Shown here piece by piece: positions 218 to 9,369 of a stretch of DNA of 10,848 nt; within the stretch, counting starts at the first letter, position 1, and each line of letters opens with the position of its first letter. Both the position numbers and the translations under genes were made by a program. This DNA is from an uncultured Sphingomonas sp. Its GTDB lineage: Bacteria > Pseudomonadota > Alphaproteobacteria > Sphingomonadales > Sphingomonadaceae. The DNA is taken from positions 1 to 10,848 of the forward strand of contig CAMPIY010000041.1 of assembly GCA_946886645.1 (NCBI GenBank). Reading direction: 5' to 3'. The notes beneath the pieces were generated by a model. That model did not search any database, was not told the origin of the DNA, and saw only the letters and a list, made by a program, of their open reading frames with translations.

Positions 218-1267
218 TCAATCGCGGCCGACGACCTCTTTCAGCTCCGACAATTCCCAATCGTCGTTGCGGCTGAAAGGGAGCAAGGGCTGGAGCGCCG
301 CGAAGCCGGTGCGGCCCATGGCCTTGCGCAGCGCCTCCAGTTCCGCGAATTGCCGGCGAAGTCGATAGCGCTCTTCCGGCTGGACGAGGCGATCCTTGTC
401 CTGAAGCTCGCGTTCAGCCGCGAGCACCAGCTCTGTCTTGAGCGTGCAATAGGCGTGAATTCGTTCTGCCTGCGACCCGGTCGACCGCTTGGCCAGCGCC
501 TCGATCCTCTGCCCGCTGGCGTCCTTCGGAAAACCCCCGCCGCGCCACTCGGCCAGCGCCGCCTCATGCGCCGCGCTTTCCTGCGCCAGCCAGCCCTTGG
601 CCTCCCCCTCGCCGAACCGGAGGACGCCCAGCAGGACCAGTGGTGCGGTAACCAGGGTGACGAACATGACGGGCATCGGCTGGTCGGGGAAATGGTTGAA
701 GGCCATGTGGATCAGGCTCGCCGCGACATAGCCCGGCAGAAACCACAGCGGGTTGAGCCAGAATTTGCCGCCGCTGGCCCTCGTCGACCTCTCGCCCAAC
801 TCATGCGCAATAGCGGCGAGGATTGCGGTGGTCGTGCCGTGCATCACCGCCGTTCCCAGTCCGCGCACCATCCACACCGGGGTGGTCAATTCGGGATAGC
901 GGGCGAGATAGAAGATATTCTCGATGACCGAGAAACCGGCCCCGATCGTGAAGCCGGAAATGACCGCGTCCAGCTTGTACCCGATGCGGTTGCCCGCAAA
1001 CAGCAGCACAACCGCCAGCCCTTTGAGCGCTTCCTCGATCCAGGGCGCGACGATCCGGCTGTAGAAGGAGAAGCCCATCGGCAGATTGTCGAGCATCTGG
1101 CCGCTGATCGGCCAGGCGGCGAGCGCGGTGATCCCGCCGAGGATCAGCAGGCCCAGCATTTCCCACACGCTCATCAGCTTGAAGATGTCGAGCCAGGCGA
1201 ACATCGCCGCCATCAGCAGGACCGGCACCAGTGCCAGCGACCAGTCGATCACTTCCGCCATGTTCAT
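218..1267 (-). CDS. PrsW-family intramembrane metalloprotease with cytoplasmic C-terminal extension
   Basis: This polytopic membrane protein belongs to the PrsW (peptidase M82) family within the CPBP/PrsW-like membrane protease superfamily. The founding member, in Bacillus subtilis, makes the site-1 cut in the anti-sigma factor RsiW. About seven hydrophobic segments lie between residues 7 and 217. The expected metal-site residues are visible: the Glu pair in PWIEEALKG (78-79), [10 protein letters not shown] with Glu116, His143 in VMHGTT, and LIHMAFNH with His187 and His192. Residues 218-349 form a charged, mostly helical tail that is probably cytoplasmic and longer than a minimal PrsW core. 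The start is ATG at 1267; a second ATG two codons later is possible. AAGGCG, overlapping the upstream stop codon, is the ribosome site. The 10-bp gap to the upstream gene indicates translational linkage. No anti-sigma/sigma pair is adjacent, so the substrate is unknown. Confidence 0.87.
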
Positions 1268-1277
1268 GAGCTACGCC

Positions 1278-4200
1278 TTACATGATTTTGAGGGAAGCGA
1301 GCCACTCCGTCTTGCCGTCGATGTCCTTGTCGCCGAACCCGCGCGCCACGCCGACCGAGAAGACCATCGGCAGCCGGAGCGCGACGGTGAAGGCCAGGTC
1401 GATCTGCGCCCCGATGTCGTGGACGCGATAGCTGCGGCCGTTCGGCGCTCCGAACAACATCGTCCCGCCGAACAGTGCCGGCCGCGCATAGCTTAGGTAA
1501 AATGCTGGAGTTCCGACTTCTGCGAAGCGGAGCGGTGGCAGGTTCACTTCGCCCGTCACCTTGGCGAACTTGCGTGCGGCGATCTGGTCGATCTCGAAGC
1601 CCGGGAAGCTTTCCAGCTCGCGGTACCGCTTCTCCGGCCGGTTATCGACATAGTTGTTGCGGAAGCTTCCGAAATAATAAGCGCCGAGCGGGCTTTCCTC
1701 ATGGCCACCGGCAAGCCCCGCCTGCGCATAGACCCAGGCCGAGCTGTTCCCGATCGGCAGCGGCACACCATAATCGATGCCGCCCATGATGTGCGGGTAG
1801 CTGTCGCCCAGCGCATGATCGACGCCGCCGACGATCCGCCAGGCGATGCCCTTTTCATGATCGACGCCGCCCAGCGATTTGCGGGTATTGGTGTATTTGA
1901 TGCCTGCTTCGGCTGACAATATGTTCTTGGGGCTGGCGACGTTCTGCGCGGACGGTAGCTGCTCCAGCCCGAAATAGCCGGCGACGGTGCCGAACACGTC
2001 GAGTTGCCGCGGCGGGTCGTAGATGATCGTCTTGTTGTACGAAGCGCTGATCGAATCTCCCTTGCGGCTTCGAAGAACCGGTCCGGCAAGGTCGTAGATA
2101 TCGGCGTCGTTGTGCCAGTAGCGCAGCTTCCAGTTCAGCGTCTGATATTCGATGTCGGCGTGGAGCCGCTCCTTGTCCCGCATGTCTCCCCAGGGCGAGA
2201 CGCTGAAGGTCGCGCTCAACTGCCGGAATTGCAGCGGGTCTTCGAAATGGAGGTAAAAGCCCGGCGCGACTTTCTGCTTATATCCTTCGATGACCGGATA
2301 GGTCGCCGCCAGCTTCATCCGTCCGCCGGGATGATACATGCCGCGCTGGGTGATGAGGGAATCGAGGTCGATCTTGGCCGGCGATCCGACGCCCCACTCC
2401 TTAAGCTCCGGGTGCGTTTTCACGACCTGCGTGCCGAGGAAGTCGACCGTCCCAAGGTCGTTCTTCACTTCGGGCGTGATGAGCGAGGGCGTCAGCCCCT
2501 GCCCGGCATATTCGTAGACCAGCAGCCGCCCATCCGGTCGCAGCATCGGCCGGAAGAAGCCGGTCGCGGCGTTGGAAACGGCCTCATATTTCTTCGACGC
2601 AATGTCGAAATGGAAGACGTTCGACACGCCGGTGTAATAGCTGGTGCCGTAAAGCGACTTGCCGTCGGGCGTGAAGGTGAAGCCCTCCGGCGTCGAGGGC
2701 GGCAGGTCGAGCCGCGCAATCTCTTCCGGCCCGGCCAATTCCTCGAACGATTTCATCGACCAGACGCGGACCGATTGGGTACCGTCGATCTCGCCATAGC
2801 TGGCGGAGATCATCGATCCGTCGGGCGAAATGTCGAGGTCGAACGGCGTGGTGCCATAGTCGAACGTGTGGATCTGGTTGAAACCAGCATAGGGCGGCGG
2901 GATACGAACGATGGTCGCGTAGCCATTCTGATGGCGGATGCCCCAGATCGACTTGTCGCGCGGATTGACGACCATGTCGCCGATCCGCGCGTCCTTCAGC
3001 AGCATCCGCTTCTTGCCCGTGTCGACGTCAATTTCGAACAGGTCGCGGAAGGCGTAATTGTCTTCGGTGTAATAGGCTTTCCGAGCATCGGGATCGAAGG
3101 CGACGCTGGTCACCTTATAGAGCATCATGCCCTTGAGTTCGGACAGCTTGCGCAACTGGCCGGTCGCAAGGTCCATGGTGCCGATGAACCCGATCTCGCC
3201 CGGATAGCGGAATGCCGCGACCAGCCGGTTGGTCTTCTCGTCGACATAGCCGCGCGACATCGACCCCAACCCTTTCGGACTGAGGTGCGTAACCTCCGTC
3301 AGCGGATAGGCCGACAGCTTGGCCAGGTTGGCCCGCTGGAAATTGCGCTCCCACGACAGCCAGTCGTCCCATGCGTCGTCGAGCCGCTTTCCGAAAACCT
3401 GGCGAAATTGCGCAGCGTAGAAGGCCTTGCTGCCTTCGTCGCGGCGGAGCCACTGGACGACCTTGTCCGGCCCATAGGTCAGCGCCAGCCACGACATGAA
3501 GCGGGTGCCGTAGAGATATTCGTTGACCCCGACCTGGAAGTCGACCGCCGTGCCTTCGCTTTCCAGGCCGAGCGGCGAATAGAGCTTGTCGCCGTCGCGA
3601 ACCTTGGCGCGGAACACCATCTCGTCGAAGGCGCCCTGCCCGCGCCCAAGCCCGCCCGCCATCCATGTCTCGAAGAACACCGCCGAACCCTCGAGATACC
3701 AGCGCGGGACATTGTTCCTGGGCGTGGCCAGGAAATTGTAGAGGATCGATTCCGGATGCTCCTGGATCGGCATCGGCTTGCCGTGCAGGAATTTCCGCCA
3801 GAAGGCGTCGCGCTTGTTCCACACGTCCATGGTCGCGACGTGCGCCAGCTCATGGTTGGTCATGGTGAAGAAGCGTTCGCCCGGCGTGAACGTCTCCATC
3901 GACTGCGACAGCGGCGCGACGTCGAGCAGCACGGCGTTGTTCGGCGACGACCGCGCCCCCGCGTTGCCATAGTCGCCGAAATCCTTGATCAGCACCGTCG
4001 TGCGATCCCACGGCGTCCAATTGAACTTGCGCTTGTGGAACTGGAGCGCGTTTTCCAGCGACCGGCCGATGTACGGCGTCAGGTAGGTCTGGACCGGGTC
4101 GAAATAGAGGATCGAGAAGTTGCTGGTCTCGAGGGTCGAGAGCGGGATGCCCGACGCGTCGGGCGGCACATGTTCCGGTTCCTTGGGAGCGGGCTCTCCG

Positions 4201-4379
4201 GCCGGCGGCTCGGCCGGAGGGGTGTCGGGCTGGGCGACAGGTTCCTGAACCGTCGTCGTATCCGGCTGCGGGGGAGGCGGGTCGACCTGCTCCTGGGCAA
4301 ATGCCCCTGAGGCCGACCCCGCCAGCAACGCCGCAAGCACGCCCGCTACGGCCGGGCGCTGCCGGTGCCTTTCACTCAT
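1278..4379 (-). CDS. Exported gluzincin-type zinc peptidase fused to a beta-propeller and a predicted outer-membrane beta-barrel
   Basis: This 1033-residue envelope protein has several recognisable parts. A signal peptide covers 1-28 (AFA|Q cleavage site), followed by a Pro/Glu-rich linker at 30-74. A Peptidase_MA-like zinc protease domain spans about 85-355, with HELAH at 176-180. The third ligand is probably Glu230 in WYLEG, the usual gluzincin arrangement. Residues about 365-640 hold repeated blades typical of TolB/WD40-like propellers, for example FDLDISPDG at 513-521 and FTFTPDG at 567-573. From about 685 to the end, alternating aromatic/small strands and turns look like an outer-membrane barrel. 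The last residue is Met rather than the usual aromatic. The gene starts 33 bp after the repeat-protein stop, with a G-run just before the ATG, and lies 10 bp upstream of the prsW-like gene. Propeller and barrel assignments come from pattern reading; the protease motif is directly visible. Substrate unknown. Confidence 0.8.
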   Translation of the reverse strand: MSERHRQRPAVAGVLAALLAGSASGAFAQEQVDPPPPQPDTTTVQEPVAQPDTPPAEPPAGEPAPKEPEHVPPDASGIPLSTLETSNFSILYFDPVQTYLTPYIGRSLENALQFHKRKFNWTPWDRTTVLIKDFGDYGNAGARSSPNNAVLLDVAPLSQSMETFTPGERFFTMTNHELAHVATMDVWNKRDAFWRKFLHGKPMPIQEHPESILYNFLATPRNNVPRWYLEGSAVFFETWMAGGLGRGQGAFDEMVFRAKVRDGDKLYSPLGLESEGTAVDFQVGVNEYLYGTRFMSWLALTYGPDKVVQWLRRDEGSKAFYAAQFRQVFGKRLDDAWDDWLSWERNFQRANLAKLSAYPLTEVTHLSPKGLGSMSRGYVDEKTNRLVAAFRYPGEIGFIGTMDLATGQLRKLSELKGMMLYKVTSVAFDPDARKAYYTEDNYAFRDLFEIDVDTGKKRMLLKDARIGDMVVNPRDKSIWGIRHQNGYATIVRIPPPYAGFNQIHTFDYGTTPFDLDISPDGSMISASYGEIDGTQSVRVWSMKSFEELAGPEEIARLDLPPSTPEGFTFTPDGKSLYGTSYYTGVSNVFHFDIASKKYEAVSNAATGFFRPMLRPDGRLLVYEYAGQGLTPSLITPEVKNDLGTVDFLGTQVVKTHPELKEWGVGSPAKIDLDSLITQRGMYHPGGRMKLAATYPVIEGYKQKVAPGFYLHFEDPLQFRQLSATFSVSPWGDMRDKERLHADIEYQTLNWKLRYWHNDADIYDLAGPVLRSRKGDSISASYNKTIIYDPPRQLDVFGTVAGYFGLEQLPSAQNVASPKNILSAEAGIKYTNTRKSLGGVDHEKGIAWRIVGGVDHALGDSYPHIMGGIDYGVPLPIGNSSAWVYAQAGLAGGHEESPLGAYYFGSFRNNYVDNRPEKRYRELESFPGFEIDQIAARKFAKVTGEVNLPPLRFAEVGTPAFYLSYARPALFGGTMLFGAPNGRSYRVHDIGAQIDLAFTVALRLPMVFSVGVARGFGDKDIDGKTEWLASLKIM

Positions 4380-4412: not shown

Positions 4413-6113
4413 TTAGTTCGCTTGGCTGATGGCCCTCGCCAGGCTTCCGCTCTGCAACGCCGAGGCAAAGGAAGCATTGGTCGCCAGCGAACGGAACGCC
4501 GCATTCTGGCTAAGCGCTGCAAACGCCGCCGAATTGCGGGAAATTGCCGACAAGGCCGCGGAGTTATCCGCCAGCGCGGCAAAGGCCGCCGGATTGGCCA
4601 TCATGGCCCCCAGCGCCGCCTGATTTCCATTCAGTGCTGCAAGGCTGCCGGCGTTGAGCCTACCCTGCGATGCCAGCGACGCGGCAGCCGCGGCAGAGTT
4701 GAAGGCCTGCGCAGCCGAAACCGCGTTTGCCAAGCGTCCGCTCCGCGCCAGCGAAGCGAACGCCGCCTCGTTGCGGGCCATGGCTTCGATCGCCTTGGCG
4801 GTTCCGGCAAAGTTGACGCTGTTGGAGGAAAGCCCAGCGATCGCCCTGGCGTTCTGCGTCAGCGCGGCGAAGGCCGCCGGATTGCTGAGCGCCGACATTG
4901 CGCGGGCGTCGCCCGCCAATTCGGCGAACGCCTTGGCATTCGGCGCCATCGCGGCATTGGTGCCGCTCAGGGCCGCCGCCTTGAAGCCGGCGCTATCCTT
5001 CACCAGCGCGGCGAAAGCTCCCGGATTCATCGCCATGGCGTTCAGCGCGACACGGTGGTTCGCCAGGGCCGCGAACTGGGCCGAATGGCCCGCCAGCCCC
5101 GCAAGAAGCCGCTGATCCCGCGCCAAATTCGCAAAGGCCGCCGAGTTACCGGTTAAGGCCGCCAGCGACGCCGAATTGACCGCGCGCGAGTTGCCGAAGC
5201 TGGCCGACATTTCCGCCGCGGCGCGAGCCGCGCTCGCCAGCGAGGACGGGCTTTGCGCCAGTGCGGCGAACGCCGCCTCGTTGCGGGCCATGGCTTCGAT
5301 CGCCTTGGCGGTTCCGGCAAAGTTGACGCTGTTGGAGGAAAGCCCAGCGATCGCCCTGGCGTTCTGCGTCAGCGCGGCGAAGGCCGCCGGATTGCTGAGC
5401 GCCGACATTGCGCGGGCGTCGCCCGCCAATTCGGCGAACGCCTTGGCATTCGGCGCCATCGCGGCATTGGTGCCGCTCAGGGCCGCCGCCTTGAAGCCGG
5501 CGCTATCCTTCACCAGCGCGGCGAAAGCTCCCGGATTCATCGCCATGGCGTTCAGCGCGACACGGTGGTTCGCCAGGGCCGCGAACTGGGCCGAATGGCC
5601 CGCCAGCCCCGCAAGAAGCCGCTGATCCCGCGCCAGGTTCGCAAATGCCGCCGAATTGTCGGCCATTGCGGCCAGGGCCGCGTCCTGCCGCGCCCTCGAT
5701 TGCGAAACCAATGCGGCCGACTGGGCCAGGCTGCGGAATGCCGCCTGGTCCTTGGCCAACTCCGCGAAAGCCTTGGGATCGGCAGCGATCGCCGCCATTG
5801 CCGCCCGGTTCTGAACCAGCGCCGCGAAGCCCGGATCGCCGGCCAGCGCGCGGAAATTCGGATCCTTGACCATGACCTCAAAGGCATCGGTCTGCATCAG
5901 CTGCGCCACCGAAGTGTCGCCAAGCGTCACATCCTTTGCCCCGATCTGGCTGGAAACATAGCGATCCGCCGGGCCTACTGTGCCCGCGGTCGGACCTAAT
6001 GGCGGATAAACTCGGCCGAGCCCGTAAGCGCCCGCTGCGATTGCCAGCACGGCCGCTCCGGTAGCCAGATATTTGCGATTCGAACGCTCACTATCGTTCA
6101 CGATGTCAGACAT
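4413..6113 (-). CDS. Alanine-rich decapeptide-repeat protein with N-terminal membrane anchor or signal peptide
   Basis: I do not recognise a named family. The 566-residue protein begins with a short basic segment and a hydrophobic stretch at about 14-33, either an uncleaved signal anchor or a signal peptide. Most of it would then lie outside the cytoplasm. From about residue 78 to the end it consists of ten-residue units of the form x-[N/D]-[S/P]-x-A-F-A-A-L-A, rich in Ala, Leu, Phe and Met and almost free of Cys and Trp. The units are regular over long runs (for example 151-200). Residues 153-283 and 323-453 are identical, an offset of 170 residues. The Asn/Asp/Ser-Pro at each unit start looks like a helix cap, which suggests a helical rod or solenoid. 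The gene is first in the minus-strand row. A G-rich stretch (GGGGGCG) just before the ATG is a weak ribosome site. No catalytic motif is visible; a structural or scaffold role is only inference. Confidence 0.72.
   Translation of the reverse strand: MSDIVNDSERSNRKYLATGAAVLAIAAGAYGLGRVYPPLGPTAGTVGPADRYVSSQIGAKDVTLGDTSVAQLMQTDAFEVMVKDPNFRALAGDPGFAALVQNRAAMAAIAADPKAFAELAKDQAAFRSLAQSAALVSQSRARQDAALAAMADNSAAFANLARDQRLLAGLAGHSAQFAALANHRVALNAMAMNPGAFAALVKDSAGFKAAALSGTNAAMAPNAKAFAELAGDARAMSALSNPAAFAALTQNARAIAGLSSNSVNFAGTAKAIEAMARNEAAFAALAQSPSSLASAARAAAEMSASFGNSRAVNSASLAALTGNSAAFANLARDQRLLAGLAGHSAQFAALANHRVALNAMAMNPGAFAALVKDSAGFKAAALSGTNAAMAPNAKAFAELAGDARAMSALSNPAAFAALTQNARAIAGLSSNSVNFAGTAKAIEAMARNEAAFASLARSGRLANAVSAAQAFNSAAAAASLASQGRLNAGSLAALNGNQAALGAMMANPAAFAALADNSAALSAISRNSAAFAALSQNAAFRSLATNASFASALQSGSLARAISQAN
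4756..5125. repeat. Perfect 370-bp direct repeat, second copy (codes for the C-terminal unit)
   Basis: Every base matches 5266-5635 when read line by line, at an offset of 510 bp (170 codons, in frame). The identity ends abruptly on both sides. It lies inside the decapeptide-repeat gene and encodes the second copy of the 131-residue identical protein block. Confidence 0.95.
5266..5635. repeat. Perfect 370-bp direct repeat, first copy (codes for the N-terminal unit)
   Basis: This is the partner of the repeat at 4756-5125. Between the copies lie 140 bp of unduplicated sequence (5126-5265). Just outside the block the amino acids NSAAFANL are still shared, but four of eight codons differ synonymously. 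This suggests that an older repeat was later homogenised over exactly this block. Confidence 0.95.
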
Positions 6114-6328: not shown

Positions 6329-7099
6329 ATGGCGCCAAGACAGCATTGGCCCGAGCGGCTTTGGTTGGTTCGGCACGGGCAAAGCCAGGGAAATGTCGCA
6401 CGCGACGCGGCCCATGAAGCCGGCCACGCGGTCATCGACCTCGACATCCGCGACGTCGATGTGCCCTTGTCCGAACTCGGCAAGCGGCAGGCCGAAGCGA
6501 CCGGCCGCTGGTTCGCGGCGCTGCCCGAGTCCCAAAAGCCCGAAGTCCTTCTGTCGTCGCCCTATGTCCGGTCGCGCCAGACGGCGGAGGCGATCTGCGA
6601 CGCCGGCGGCCTTTGCGGCGGCGCCAAGCCGACCATCCTCGACGAACGCTTGCGCGAACGGGAGTTCGGCGTGTTCGACGGCCTGACCACGCTCGGTATC
6701 CGGCAGAAATATCCCGAAGAAGCCGCGCACCGCACCAAGATGGGCAAATTCTACCACCGGCCGCCGGGCGGAGAGAGCTGGGCCGACGTCATCCTCCGGC
6801 TCCGCTCGATGCTGAACACCATCAACCTTCATTATGCCGACAAGCGGGTCCTCGTCGTCGCGCACCAGGTGGTGGTCCTGTGCATGCGCTATATATTGGA
6901 GGAGCTGACCGAGGCGCAGATCCTGGCGATCGACAAGCAGGCCGAAATCCTCAACTGCGGCATCTGCGCGTTCGATTTCGAGCCCAATGCGCAGTCGCTG
7001 TGCGTGCCGACGCTGGAGCTATGGAATCACGGAGCGCCGCTGGAGGCGGAAGGCACCCCGCAGACCGCCGAACCCGACATGATGACCGGCTCGCGATGA
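6329..7099 (+). CDS. Histidine phosphatase family protein (phosphoglycerate mutase-like)
   Basis: This 256-residue cytoplasmic protein belongs to the branch-1 histidine phosphatase superfamily. Members move or remove phosphate through a phospho-histidine intermediate. The catalytic core is visible: LVRHGQSQGN at 13-22 with Arg15 and catalytic His16, SSPYVRSRQTAE at 76-87 with Arg81, the REREFG segment at 109-114 supplying the acid residue, and VVAHQ with the second His179. PPGGES at 145-150 resembles the broad-specificity or fructose-bisphosphatase-like members. The length is usual for the family, so it is a phosphatase or mutase whose substrate cannot be named. An ideal AGGAGG site sets the start. 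Its TGA stop overlaps the ATG of the broken nnrD, so the two were translationally coupled. The pairing with a nicotinamide-nucleotide repair gene may hint at a housekeeping role. Confidence 0.88.
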   Translation: MAPRQHWPERLWLVRHGQSQGNVARDAAHEAGHAVIDLDIRDVDVPLSELGKRQAEATGRWFAALPESQKPEVLLSSPYVRSRQTAEAICDAGGLCGGAKPTILDERLREREFGVFDGLTTLGIRQKYPEEAAHRTKMGKFYHRPPGGESWADVILRLRSMLNTINLHYADKRVLVVAHQVVVLCMRYILEELTEAQILAIDKQAEILNCGICAFDFEPNAQSLCVPTLELWNHGAPLEAEGTPQTAEPDMMTGSR

Positions 7100-7559
7100 C
7101 CGCTCCCGCCCCGTTGAACCGCGAGCTGCTCGACCGCCATCCGCTTCCGGCGAGCAGCGGCGGCAAGGAGGAACACGGCCGGATATTGATCGTCGCGGGA
7201 TCGAGGGACGTTCCAGGTGCCGCCCTGCTTGCAGCCCATGGCGCAATGCGGGCCGGCGCTGCGCGGAGCACTACCAATGCCTGGTCCTGGTCAAGGGTGC
7301 CCAAAGCCACGTCGTCCGCGACAACGGAGAGGTATGGAAATATCCGGGAGGCGGCCCCGGCCTCGGCGTGTCGGGATCGGGCGACGTGCTCGCCGGGATC
7401 GTCGGAGGATTGCTCGCCCGAGGCGCCGAACCGCTGACGGCGCTGCTTTGGGCGGTCTGGCTCCACGGCGAGGCAGGCCGGTCGCTCGCCGGCAAGGTGG
7501 GGAAGCTCGGCTTCCTCGCCCGCGAAATCCCGGCCGAGGTGCCGTCCCTGCTGCCCTAA
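7096..7559 (+). pseudogene. nnrD: NAD(P)H-hydrate dehydratase remnant with internal deletion and frameshift
   Basis: The intact enzyme uses ADP or ATP to dehydrate damaged NAD(P)H hydrates back to NAD(P)H. The first 55 codons, from ATG at 7096, read as the normal N-terminus: GRILIVAGSRDVPGAALLAA at 28-47, then AMRAGA. The next recognisable part is in another frame from about 7263. It includes the LVLVKGAQ strand, GVSGSGDVLAG and a normal C-terminus ending in LLP at 7556. The pieces meet near 7256-7265. Lost are the central strands, the GPG loop, the DADAL and the TPHxGE regions, about 130 codons compared with the usual 280-290. The interval of 464 nt is not a multiple of three. The first frame runs on to a stop at 7437 with no family resemblance. 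The active site cannot be complete. The N-terminal epimerase domain is absent, as in stand-alone forms. An assembly error at the junction is possible. Confidence 0.82.
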
Positions 7560-9019
7560 TGATCCGTGTGACCGTCGAGTTCGTCGCCGACCAGCTTCAC
7601 GACGTGAATGACGTTGGTCGATCCGCTCGTCTTGAACGGAACGCCGGCCATGATCACGACCCGGTCGCCCGACACCGCGAGGTGGTGACGCAGGACCATC
7701 CGCTTGGCCTTGCCAACCATCTCCTCGAAATTCGACACGTCGCGCGAATGGACGGCATGGACGCCCCATTGCAGCCCCAGCCGCCGCGCGACCGCGAGGC
7801 TCGCGGTCATCGCCATCGTCGGCACCGGCGCCCGCTCGCGCGCGATCCGGCGGGCGGTCGAGCCCGACGAAGTGTAGCAGGCCATCGCCTTCGCCGAGAG
7901 GATGCGGACGATCTGGGCGGCGCTTTCCGACAAGGCATCGGCCGTGGTTGCCTCCGCCGGCGTTTCGGTGAACTGGATTCGGCCCGAATAGACCGGGTCG
8001 GCCTCGACGCTCTGGCCGATCTTGTCCATCATCGCGACGGCCTCGACCGGATATTGCCCGGCCGCGCTTTCGGCCGACAGCATGATCGCGTCCGCCCCGT
8101 CATAAATGGCGTTGGCGACGTCGCTCACTTCGGCGCGCGTCGGGCTGGGCGACACGATCATCGATTCCAGCATCTGGGTTGCGACGACCACCGGCCTTCC
8201 GGCCTGCCGGGCAGCGGCGACGATCCGATTCTGTGCCGGCGGAACATCCTCGGGCGGCAACTCGACGCCCAGGTCGCCGCGCGCCACCATCACCGCGTCG
8301 ACCAGCGAAATGATCTCGTCGAGATGGTCCAGCGCATGGGGTTTCTCGATCTTGGCCAGCAACCCGGCCTTGTCGCCCACCAGGTCGCGCGCCTCCACGA
8401 CGTCCTCCGGCCGCTGGACGAACGACAGCGCAATGAAGTCGGCGCCTTGCTCCAAGGCAAAGGCGAGGTCGCTGCGGTCCTTGTCGGTCAGCGCGGGGAT
8501 CGGCACCACCACGTCGGGGACGTTGACGCCCTTGCTGTTCGACACTTTGCCGCCGACCATCACTTCGGCCTCGATCCGCTCGTCGGAAACGTCGAGCGCC
8601 TTGAGACGGACCTTGCCGTCATCGATCAGCAGACGGTCCCCCGCCTTGAGCGAGGCGAACAACTCCGGATGCGGCAGCTGGACGCGGGCCGCGTCGCCCT
8701 GCGCCGGGCTGACGTCGAGGACAAACCGCTGCCCGGTCTCCAGCATCACCGAACCGCCCTTGAACCGTCCGACCCGAAGCTTCGGCCCTTGCAAGTCGAA
8801 CAGAATCGTCGTCGGACGGCGAAGAGTCTTTTCAAGGCCGCGGATCGCCTCGACCAGCGCCACCTTGTCCGCCTGCTCGCCATGGCTCATGTTGATGCGG
8901 AAGGCATCAGCGCCCGCCTCCATCAACGCGCGGATCATCTCGGGACTTGAGGAGGCCGGCCCCAGCGTGGCCAGGATCTTCACCTTGCGGGCGCGCGGTT
9001 TCAGCATGGGCCTCGCCAT
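7556..9019 (-). CDS. pyk: Pyruvate kinase
   Basis: This enzyme converts phosphoenolpyruvate and ADP to pyruvate and ATP, the last step of the lower glycolytic (Entner-Doudoroff) route. The 487 residues are normal for the family. Visible motifs are KILATLGPAS (14-23), FRINMSHGE (40-48, substrate Arg41), FDLQGPKLR (74-82), the catalytic Lys223 in AKIEKPHALDHLDEI, MVARGDLGVELP (244-255) with the metal ligand Asp249, TQMLESMI (281-288) and SAESAAGQYPVEAV (315-328). The C-terminal regulatory-type domain from about 360 includes SSGSTARRIAR. No strong ribosome site precedes the ATG at 9019; the second ATG at 9007, with GCGAGG before it, is a possible alternative giving 483 residues. The gene faces nnrD tail to tail, with its TAG overlapping the TAA of nnrD, and is divergent from gapR. 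Confidence 0.97.
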   Translation of the reverse strand: MARPMLKPRARKVKILATLGPASSSPEMIRALMEAGADAFRINMSHGEQADKVALVEAIRGLEKTLRRPTTILFDLQGPKLRVGRFKGGSVMLETGQRFVLDVSPAQGDAARVQLPHPELFASLKAGDRLLIDDGKVRLKALDVSDERIEAEVMVGGKVSNSKGVNVPDVVVPIPALTDKDRSDLAFALEQGADFIALSFVQRPEDVVEARDLVGDKAGLLAKIEKPHALDHLDEIISLVDAVMVARGDLGVELPPEDVPPAQNRIVAAARQAGRPVVVATQMLESMIVSPSPTRAEVSDVANAIYDGADAIMLSAESAAGQYPVEAVAMMDKIGQSVEADPVYSGRIQFTETPAEATTADALSESAAQIVRILSAKAMACYTSSGSTARRIARERAPVPTMAMTASLAVARRLGLQWGVHAVHSRDVSNFEEMVGKAKRMVLRHHLAVSGDRVVIMAGVPFKTSGSTNVIHVVKLVGDELDGHTDH

Positions 9020-9126
9020 AGCGGCTGTGGCGATGCGTTCAACCGGCTTGAGGCATACGGTGGCCTCGCCTAGGGAACCGCCTCAAGGTTGAAACCTCAA
9101 AAAGATTCGAAAGGGCGGAATTTCCA
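9020..9126. promoter_or_regulatory. Divergent intergenic region between pyk and gapR
   Basis: These 107 bases must hold the promoters or leaders of pyk (leftward) and gapR (rightward). I could not find a pair of boxes good enough to name. GAAAGGGCGGAA just before the gapR ATG provides a loose ribosome site. Confidence 0.4.
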
Positions 9127-9369
9127 ATGAGCGAAGGCAATGTCTCGGCCGACCAGTTACGGCTGTTCATCGAGCGGATCGAGCGGCTGGAAGAGGAAAA
9201 GAAGGGCATCGCCGACGATGTGAAGGACGTCTACGCCGAGGCGAAGGCCAATGGTTATGACACCAAGACGATGCGCTCGATCGTCCGCCTGCGGAGGATG
9301 GAGAAGAATGCGCGCGACGAAATGGACGCGCTGCTCGACACCTATCGCACCGCGCTCGGCATCGCGTAA
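9127..9369 (+). CDS. gapR: GapR-family nucleoid-associated protein (UPF0335/DUF2312)
   Basis: This small DNA-binding protein of alphaproteobacteria binds AT-rich, overtwisted DNA ahead of replication forks and helps topoisomerases and chromosome replication (known from Caulobacter crescentus GapR). All 80 residues fit the family: [19 protein letters not shown] at 8-26, a long coiled-coil helix, then [20 protein letters not shown] at 29-48 and the basic [12 protein letters not shown] at 49-60, followed by a C-terminal helix. Length and motif order are complete. It is divergent from pyk and 57 bp upstream of yebC, with a strong hairpin between. Proximity of gapR to pyk is, from memory, common in alphaproteobacteria. 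The main alternative is a phage-type GapR copy, which the chromosomal neighbours make unlikely. Confidence 0.93.

Follow-up and report, generated by a model that had tools for sequence, protein, structure and literature searches.

The window, the whole stretch of 10,848 nucleotides analyzed here, encodes a membrane-anchored repeat protein of 566 aa with relatives at 72 loci (hereafter T; ORF at 4413..6113, minus strand), and the coupling of T to two downstream genes is well supported. One of these genes encodes a peptidase-like protein that we call c0, and the other encodes a PrsW-family intramembrane protease. Our literature search did not find a description of the T family in the papers covered, and this bacterial gene set appears to be undescribed. 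We tentatively favor, with a little less than even confidence, the reading that T is a periplasmic tether or sensor arm that would couple c0 to anti-sigma/PrsW proteolysis. The preliminary description of this DNA had left out the operon, the better guide to what T does.

T is built of ten-residue units that look old

The ten-residue Ala/Phe/Leu repeat previously reported in T is real. With one copy of an internal duplication omitted, the self-identity of the 566-aa ORF product peaks at lags of 10 (z = 4.2) and 20 (z = 5.1) residues compared with 1,000 shuffles, and the consensus of 24 nonduplicated predicted helices reads N-[S/P]-A-A-F-A-A-L-A. These 24 units were defined from predicted helix caps, leaving out the second duplication copy and helices of more than 10 residues. 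Their codons are in register at positions 1 and 2 (z = 12.5 and 24.6, respectively, against a within-unit codon shuffle) and to a lower degree at position 3 (z = 6.2), and Tandem Repeats Finder did not find a DNA array in the window. Given the codon-register test and the absence of a DNA tandem array, the units look old at the DNA level, yet they are retained in the protein.

The duplication joins residues 153 to 283 (5265..5657, minus strand) and residues 323 to 453 (4755..5147, minus strand), which are identical at 131 of 131 positions with an offset of 170 residues; the DNA is free of mismatches over 4756-5125 compared with the sequence at +510. The identity thus covers 131 residues and 14 predicted helices, and the earlier statement that a 170-residue duplication equals 17 units does not hold. 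The repeat phase, which had been described as constant, is so within runs but not overall, since the spacing of helix starts in the structural model is exactly 10 residues in 24 of 42 steps, 9 in 6 steps, and between 8 and 27 in the other 12.

No Pfam family matched T at E ≤ 10, and the single NCBIfam match, TPR_END_plus, stayed below its cutoff (18.8 bits; cutoff, 32), in agreement with the previous view that T belongs to no recognized family. We therefore rejected TPR, HEAT, or another catalogued helical repeat family as an assignment for T, as no Pfam or NCBIfam profile exceeded its curated cutoff. A Med31 match in the T protein of the relative L041 (30 bits; cutoff, 25) was set aside as a repeat artifact, since no single stretch passes alone.

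AlphaFold2 predicts a regular series of short helices

The array occupies 4419..5912 (minus strand), as delimited by the AlphaFold2 (AF2) model, the N-cap count, and the codon-position test. AF2 modeled it as 43 short helices with a median length of 9 aa over residues 68 to 565, mostly at ten-residue spacing; most helices have 7 to 10 residues, some are longer, and they are joined mostly by turns of 1 or 2 residues. The mean pLDDT over residues 68 to 565 is 79.6, and beyond residue 70, a pLDDT of at least 85 is reached in 25 of 50 ten-residue blocks. Asparagine, aspartate, serine, or threonine occupies the cap in 35 of the 43 predicted helices (background, 22.8%), consistent with the proposal that each unit opens with a helix cap. 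A Foldseek search of the PDB with the T model did not find a match at E ≤ 0.001, so the full-length structure prediction proposed as a check returned regular helices with no PDB counterpart at that threshold. The model of a gamma T protein (L057) also shows a regular short-helix series, with a mean pLDDT of only 64.1, and the two models contain 30 to 43 helices per chain. With its repeats predicted to form short helices in regular succession, T resembles the alpha-solenoids. TPR, HEAT, and designed helical repeat units have 30 residues or more, whereas units of the T family have 9 or 10 and the window T has no Pfam repeat match.

Relatives share an anchor, a juxtamembrane motif, and an array

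The 72 relatives were obtained by scanning an alignment of the span-proximal region over genome contigs. By their record titles, they come from Sphingomonadales, Caulobacterales, Hyphomonadaceae, Rhizobacter and further Burkholderiales, and gamma MAGs, among them Woeseiaceae, Lysobacterales, and Chromatiales. Nonpathogenic strains that carry the gene set include Sphingomonas hankyongi, S. rhizophila, and Rhizobacter sp. Root404. By eye, the N termini of the window T and its relatives show a short basic stretch and then a single hydrophobic span (approximately residues 15 to 36; 6006..6071, minus strand). Four alignments define the juxtamembrane motif that follows, GTxxPAxRY..Q...DVxLGD..V..LMQTD (approximately residues 44 to 79; 5877..5984, minus strand). 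The segment between the span and the array of T reads GTVGPADRYVSSQIGAKDVTLGDTSVAQLMQTDAFE. All 73 loci, the window included, matched a pattern built on the beginning of this motif.

Of 31 alpha-type loci, 29 have an array period of 10 or 20, the exceptions being L007 (below threshold) and L064 (period 4). The period is 9 in 33 of the remaining 39 loci; of the others, L026 has a period of 10, L047 of 20 (borderline), L055 of 8, and L072 of 7, and the arrays of L040 and L044 are below the periodicity threshold. In L064, the array of the alpha-type T (7884-9332) consists nearly entirely of four-residue NAAS/NAAQ units, and c0 and PrsW still follow.

One could regard the tail as a tolerated, functionless low-complexity sequence produced by replication slippage, as the variability of the units and the recent 131-residue duplication in the window would suggest. 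Such neutral expansion is highly improbable in our view: 70 of 73 loci carry an array of 60 aa or more, a contig end (L031 and L052) or a stop (L065) truncates the remaining three, and the arrays are periodic in 67 of 70 loci (L047 just borderline). Furthermore, the units of the window are old in DNA and still kept at the protein level, and their caps and predicted helices are regular.

c0 and PrsW follow T

The c0 gene starts 33 bp beyond the end of T and encodes a 1,033-aa HExxH peptidase-like/beta-propeller/barrel-like protein, as judged from the ORF, the alignment, and Pfam (1278..4379, minus strand). Its HExxH motif (residues 176 to 180; 3840..3854, minus strand) and a downstream glutamate, E230, are conserved without exception in the 29 aligned members. 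The barrel assignment is weak, resting on weak Pfam matches: at E ≤ 0.05, PD40 was matched in 12 of 29 members and Omp85_2 in 11 of 29, and PD40 scored 19.8 bits in the window c0, compared with a cutoff of 20.9. These propeller and Omp85_2 matches recall TolB propeller and Omp85/D15 barrel proteins, and single c0 relatives are named "Bacterial surface antigen (D15)" or "TolB family protein" by their sources. Unlike those proteins, c0 adds an N-terminal HExxH domain and spans ∼1,000 aa, mostly without a Pfam match. PrsW starts 10 bp beyond the end of c0 (218..1267, minus strand; PF13367, E = 2.6e-18). Residues E78, E79, K82, E116, H143, H187, and N191 are the same in all 17 aligned members, and the window gene thus encodes a PrsW-family protease with conserved motifs, as in the SigW/RsiW/PrsW system.

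In 59 of 73 loci, the first same-strand gene beyond T is c0, and in one more c0 lies further on. Among the loci without c0, 9 end within ∼105 bp after T and 4 have 430 to 1,136 bp left. ORF clustering placed PrsW downstream of T in at least 47 of 73 loci; some genes escaped the ORF picking, for example in L007, where a profile search located PrsW beside c0. Clustering did not find PrsW beside c0 in L040, L047, and L048. In L083 (G543:C4), a gene that looks GGDEF-like by eye lies between an anti-sigma-T fusion and c0.

We also measured co-occurrence in two genome sets. In 71 genomes of the alpha genus to which the genome of L001 belongs (c0 at E ≤ 0.001, PrsW at E ≤ 1e-10), T was found in 30, c0 in 31, and PrsW in 31. 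All 30 genomes with T contained c0, and the mismatches (G182, G172, and G183) lie at contig ends. An anti-sigma profile gave weak matches (E of 3e-7 to 6e-4) in 7 of the 71 genomes, 3 with T and 4 without; because these matches are weak and occur in genomes with and without T, this genus seems to have no anti-sigma gene. In 64 genomes of the Burkholderiales family of L072 (c0 at E ≤ 1e-30, anti-sigma-T fusion at E ≤ 1e-12), c0 was present in 21 and the fusion in 14. Each of the 14 fusion genomes also contains c0, and in 7 the two genes share a contig. The 7 c0 genomes lacking the fusion comprise 6 that are cut by a contig edge inside c0 or at most ∼350 bp upstream and one (G531) with a T-like array that runs off the contig. 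As several assemblies break at the T repeats, the gene set is probably undercounted. In G508, G530, G547, G549, G551, and G556, the contig starts no more than ∼600 bp before c0, at the T array or close to it.

The tight pairing of T with a conserved HExxH protein would also be expected if the array were a sacrificial, multisite substrate of c0, its repeated units offering repeated sites and its cleavage state reporting peptidase activity or mislocalized c0 to anti-sigma/PrsW. We consider this very unlikely, as the units show no evident common site across lineages.

Sigma genes and anti-sigma domains precede T in many relatives

An ECF sigma or anti-sigma cluster lies upstream of T in 38 of 73 loci, and SpoIIE, HATPase, and STAS clusters lie upstream in 35, 25, and 25, respectively. 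In gamma-type loci, the upstream order is SpoIIE with GAF, HATPase, STAS, ECF sigma, and an anti-sigma-like membrane protein (zf-HC2, sub-cutoff). These domains (SpoIIE, HATPase, STAS, sigma-70, and PrsW) were assigned by Pfam in L041 only and by sequence clustering in the other loci. None of the five regulatory clusters was found upstream in 34 of 73 loci, the window included; in 27 of these 34, the sequence extends 3 kb or more upstream, and all 27, the window among them, are alpha-type. In the window, we did not find a nearby ECF sigma or anti-sigma gene, nor the RsbU/V/W-type set of SpoIIE, STAS, and HATPase_c_2 that is present in L041. L044 has the STAS cluster alone upstream. L026 combines window-like ten-residue units with upstream ECF sigma, anti-sigma, STAS, and HATPase clusters and bridges the alpha- and gamma-type arrangements.

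In L034, L040, L044, L047, L072, and P0011-P0014, T is fused in frame to a preceding N-terminal domain. This N terminus aligns over 70 columns with the anti-sigma family found as a separate gene in gamma members (hhalign probability, 98.9%; E = 2e-17). Residues 1 to 190 of the L072 protein, covering the anti-sigma domain, span, and motif, had 160 protein matches; among the 120 matches listed, 119 cover 92 to 100% of the region and 17 are named anti-sigma factor RsiW by a source. The linker of the fusions has a GC3 of 0.54 to 0.64 (five loci) compared with 0.83 to 0.92 in T (four loci), indicating weak coding character, and an SD-like stretch occurs just before T's own start. From these two features, the fusion is possibly not obligate, and T in these loci may be made both alone and fused. 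The three Rhizobacter-type linkers have the same length, 58 residues.

The fusions also bear on topology. Since the segment before the span is an anti-sigma domain in these relatives, and such a domain is necessarily cytosolic, the sequences support a placement of the array outside the inner membrane.

The main rival to a sensor arm is a purely structural tether: T would be a periplasmic scaffold that sets the distance of c0 at the outer membrane, and the sigma module would just regulate expression of the operon. Alpha members retain T-c0-PrsW with no nearby sigma gene, and the chains of 30 to 43 predicted helices would suit a spacer. Nevertheless, we hold this alternative to be rather unlikely, because it accounts neither for the in-frame anti-sigma-T fusions nor for the presence of PrsW, and Gly-rich arrays would presumably lack stiffness.

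Array sequences differ between distant lineages

Among the 120 listed anti-sigma-T matches (of 160), 96 tails were scorable, 20 were short, and 4 had no recognized motif. The fundamental periods of the tails among these listed matches were 8 (36 tails), 5 (16), 9 (15), 18 (7), 7 (6), and 10 (5), with rarer periods of 12 and 6 (2 each) and 14, 4, 1, and 16 (1 each), and no period in 3. Several metagenome tail proteins look frameshifted, so that single entries are untrustworthy. Six loci of the L072 family with T on the contig of c0 (L081, L085, L089, L090, L093, and L100) have six different units, among them QSTG, DASTGRSV, ALGQAQGQ, and ANGAANSA. Tails on separate contigs of this family consist of TNGGGLN, GGANA, AGQQ, and others, and 11 of the 14 tails were readable.

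At short distance, the N-terminal parts and arrays are, respectively, 87% and 74% identical between L117 and L118, 81% and 89% between L040 and L044, and 69% and 61% between L040 and L047. By sequence comparison, close relatives thus keep their arrays, and free exchange fails at this distance. Distant relatives keep the anchor, the juxtamembrane motif, the partner, and the possession of an array, with the array sequence exchanged, for example, from NPAAFAALA helices to GGANA, QSTG, or TNGGGLN units. The idea of a new helical rod or solenoid outside the inner membrane therefore stands in part: AF2 predicts the short helices and the anti-sigma fusions support the location, but conservation of a helical rod is not supported, since related loci have a period of 9 or repeats such as NAAS, QSTG, GGANA, and TNGGGLN. 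In L080/L104 (G531), the T-like array upstream of c0 consists of 7-residue KAADLSS units, an Ala-rich stretch, and C-terminal window-like ten-residue units, which looks like the replacement of one array type by another.

Differences between arrays within one family would likewise be expected of a surface or matrix fiber exposed outside the cell, perhaps via c0, whose turnover would reflect an arms race with phages, predators, or enzymes. The weak barrel match in c0 could fit this idea, and so could the resemblance of the window array to ten-residue repeats of phage tail fibers, which have similar N..AF/M..IAN units (7qlr, E = 9.5e-12 in a profile comparison; phrog_7809, E = 2.5e-7). These matches lie mainly in the repeats and do not establish common descent, and the identified neighbors in the window are housekeeping or envelope genes, not phage genes. 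A surface fiber is quite unlikely, given that T is held by a membrane span that is preceded in relatives by a cytosolic anti-sigma domain.

A putative envelope-surveillance module

We propose that T, c0, and PrsW make up an envelope-surveillance module in which T, anchored in the inner membrane, forms the periplasmic arm. The array would serve as a long repetitive spacer or tether that spans the periplasm from the inner membrane to the outer membrane, where c0 would sit and might contact T. In many other proteobacterial members, the module would feed an ECF sigma factor, with the anti-sigma factor beside T or fused to its cytosolic end. A change in the envelope would be sensed via T and c0 and would expose the anti-sigma/T to site-1 cleavage by PrsW (or c0), and this cleavage would pass on the signal by freeing the sigma factor. 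The proteolytic step is modeled on Bacillus, where PMC3498285 describes PrsW as the site-1 protease of the anti-sigma factor RsiW. In the window lineage, T, c0, and PrsW may work alone or on another partner, since a sigma or anti-sigma gene is absent nearby.

The array would be selected for length and repetitiveness, being in the window lineage a putative chain of ∼10-residue helix-turn units, and under such selection lineages could replace its sequence. A more specific version is possible, if doubtful: an anti-sigma factor with a periplasmic repeat arm and an apparently obligate c0 partner in the outer membrane would form a new class of envelope-sensing system, a sequence-independent ruler or tension line between the membranes, with length and repetitiveness selected and sequence and fold left free. 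Helical, Gly-rich, and Ala-rich arrays would then occupy one orthologous position.

The proposed module resembles the Bacillus SigW-RsiW-PrsW-RasP system in that an ECF sigma factor, a membrane anti-sigma factor, and a PrsW-family protease occur in one neighborhood in gamma members. It differs in that the anti-sigma factor is fused to a long repeat arm or adjoins one, an HExxH/propeller/barrel-like protein comes next in nearly every sufficiently long locus, RsbU/V/W-like genes lie upstream, and the window has no sigma/anti-sigma gene. In L041, the ECF gene is preceded by genes, in order, for a SpoIIE phosphatase with GAF, a HATPase, and a STAS protein, an arrangement that recalls RsbU/RsbV/RsbW partner switching. 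That switching classically acts on SigB-type factors, whereas the genes here adjoin an ECF factor and an envelope module.

If true, the proposal would describe a new signaling/tether module in several Proteobacteria classes and would link PrsW in Gram-negative bacteria to a putative outer-membrane peptidase. It would also provide a natural experiment on the requirements for a periplasmic arm, with the same anchor and partner genes combined with many unrelated-looking repeat tails. A helical repeat with units of 9 or 10 residues and no catalogued family match here would be useful for the study of repeat-protein structure.

Elsewhere in the window, 7096-7559 (plus strand) holds a short NAD(P)H-hydrate dehydratase (Carb_kinase) start that matches profile positions 1 to 26 of 242 only, below the curated cutoff. 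The sequence after it had no family match in the one frame tested, and the gene looks truncated or broken.
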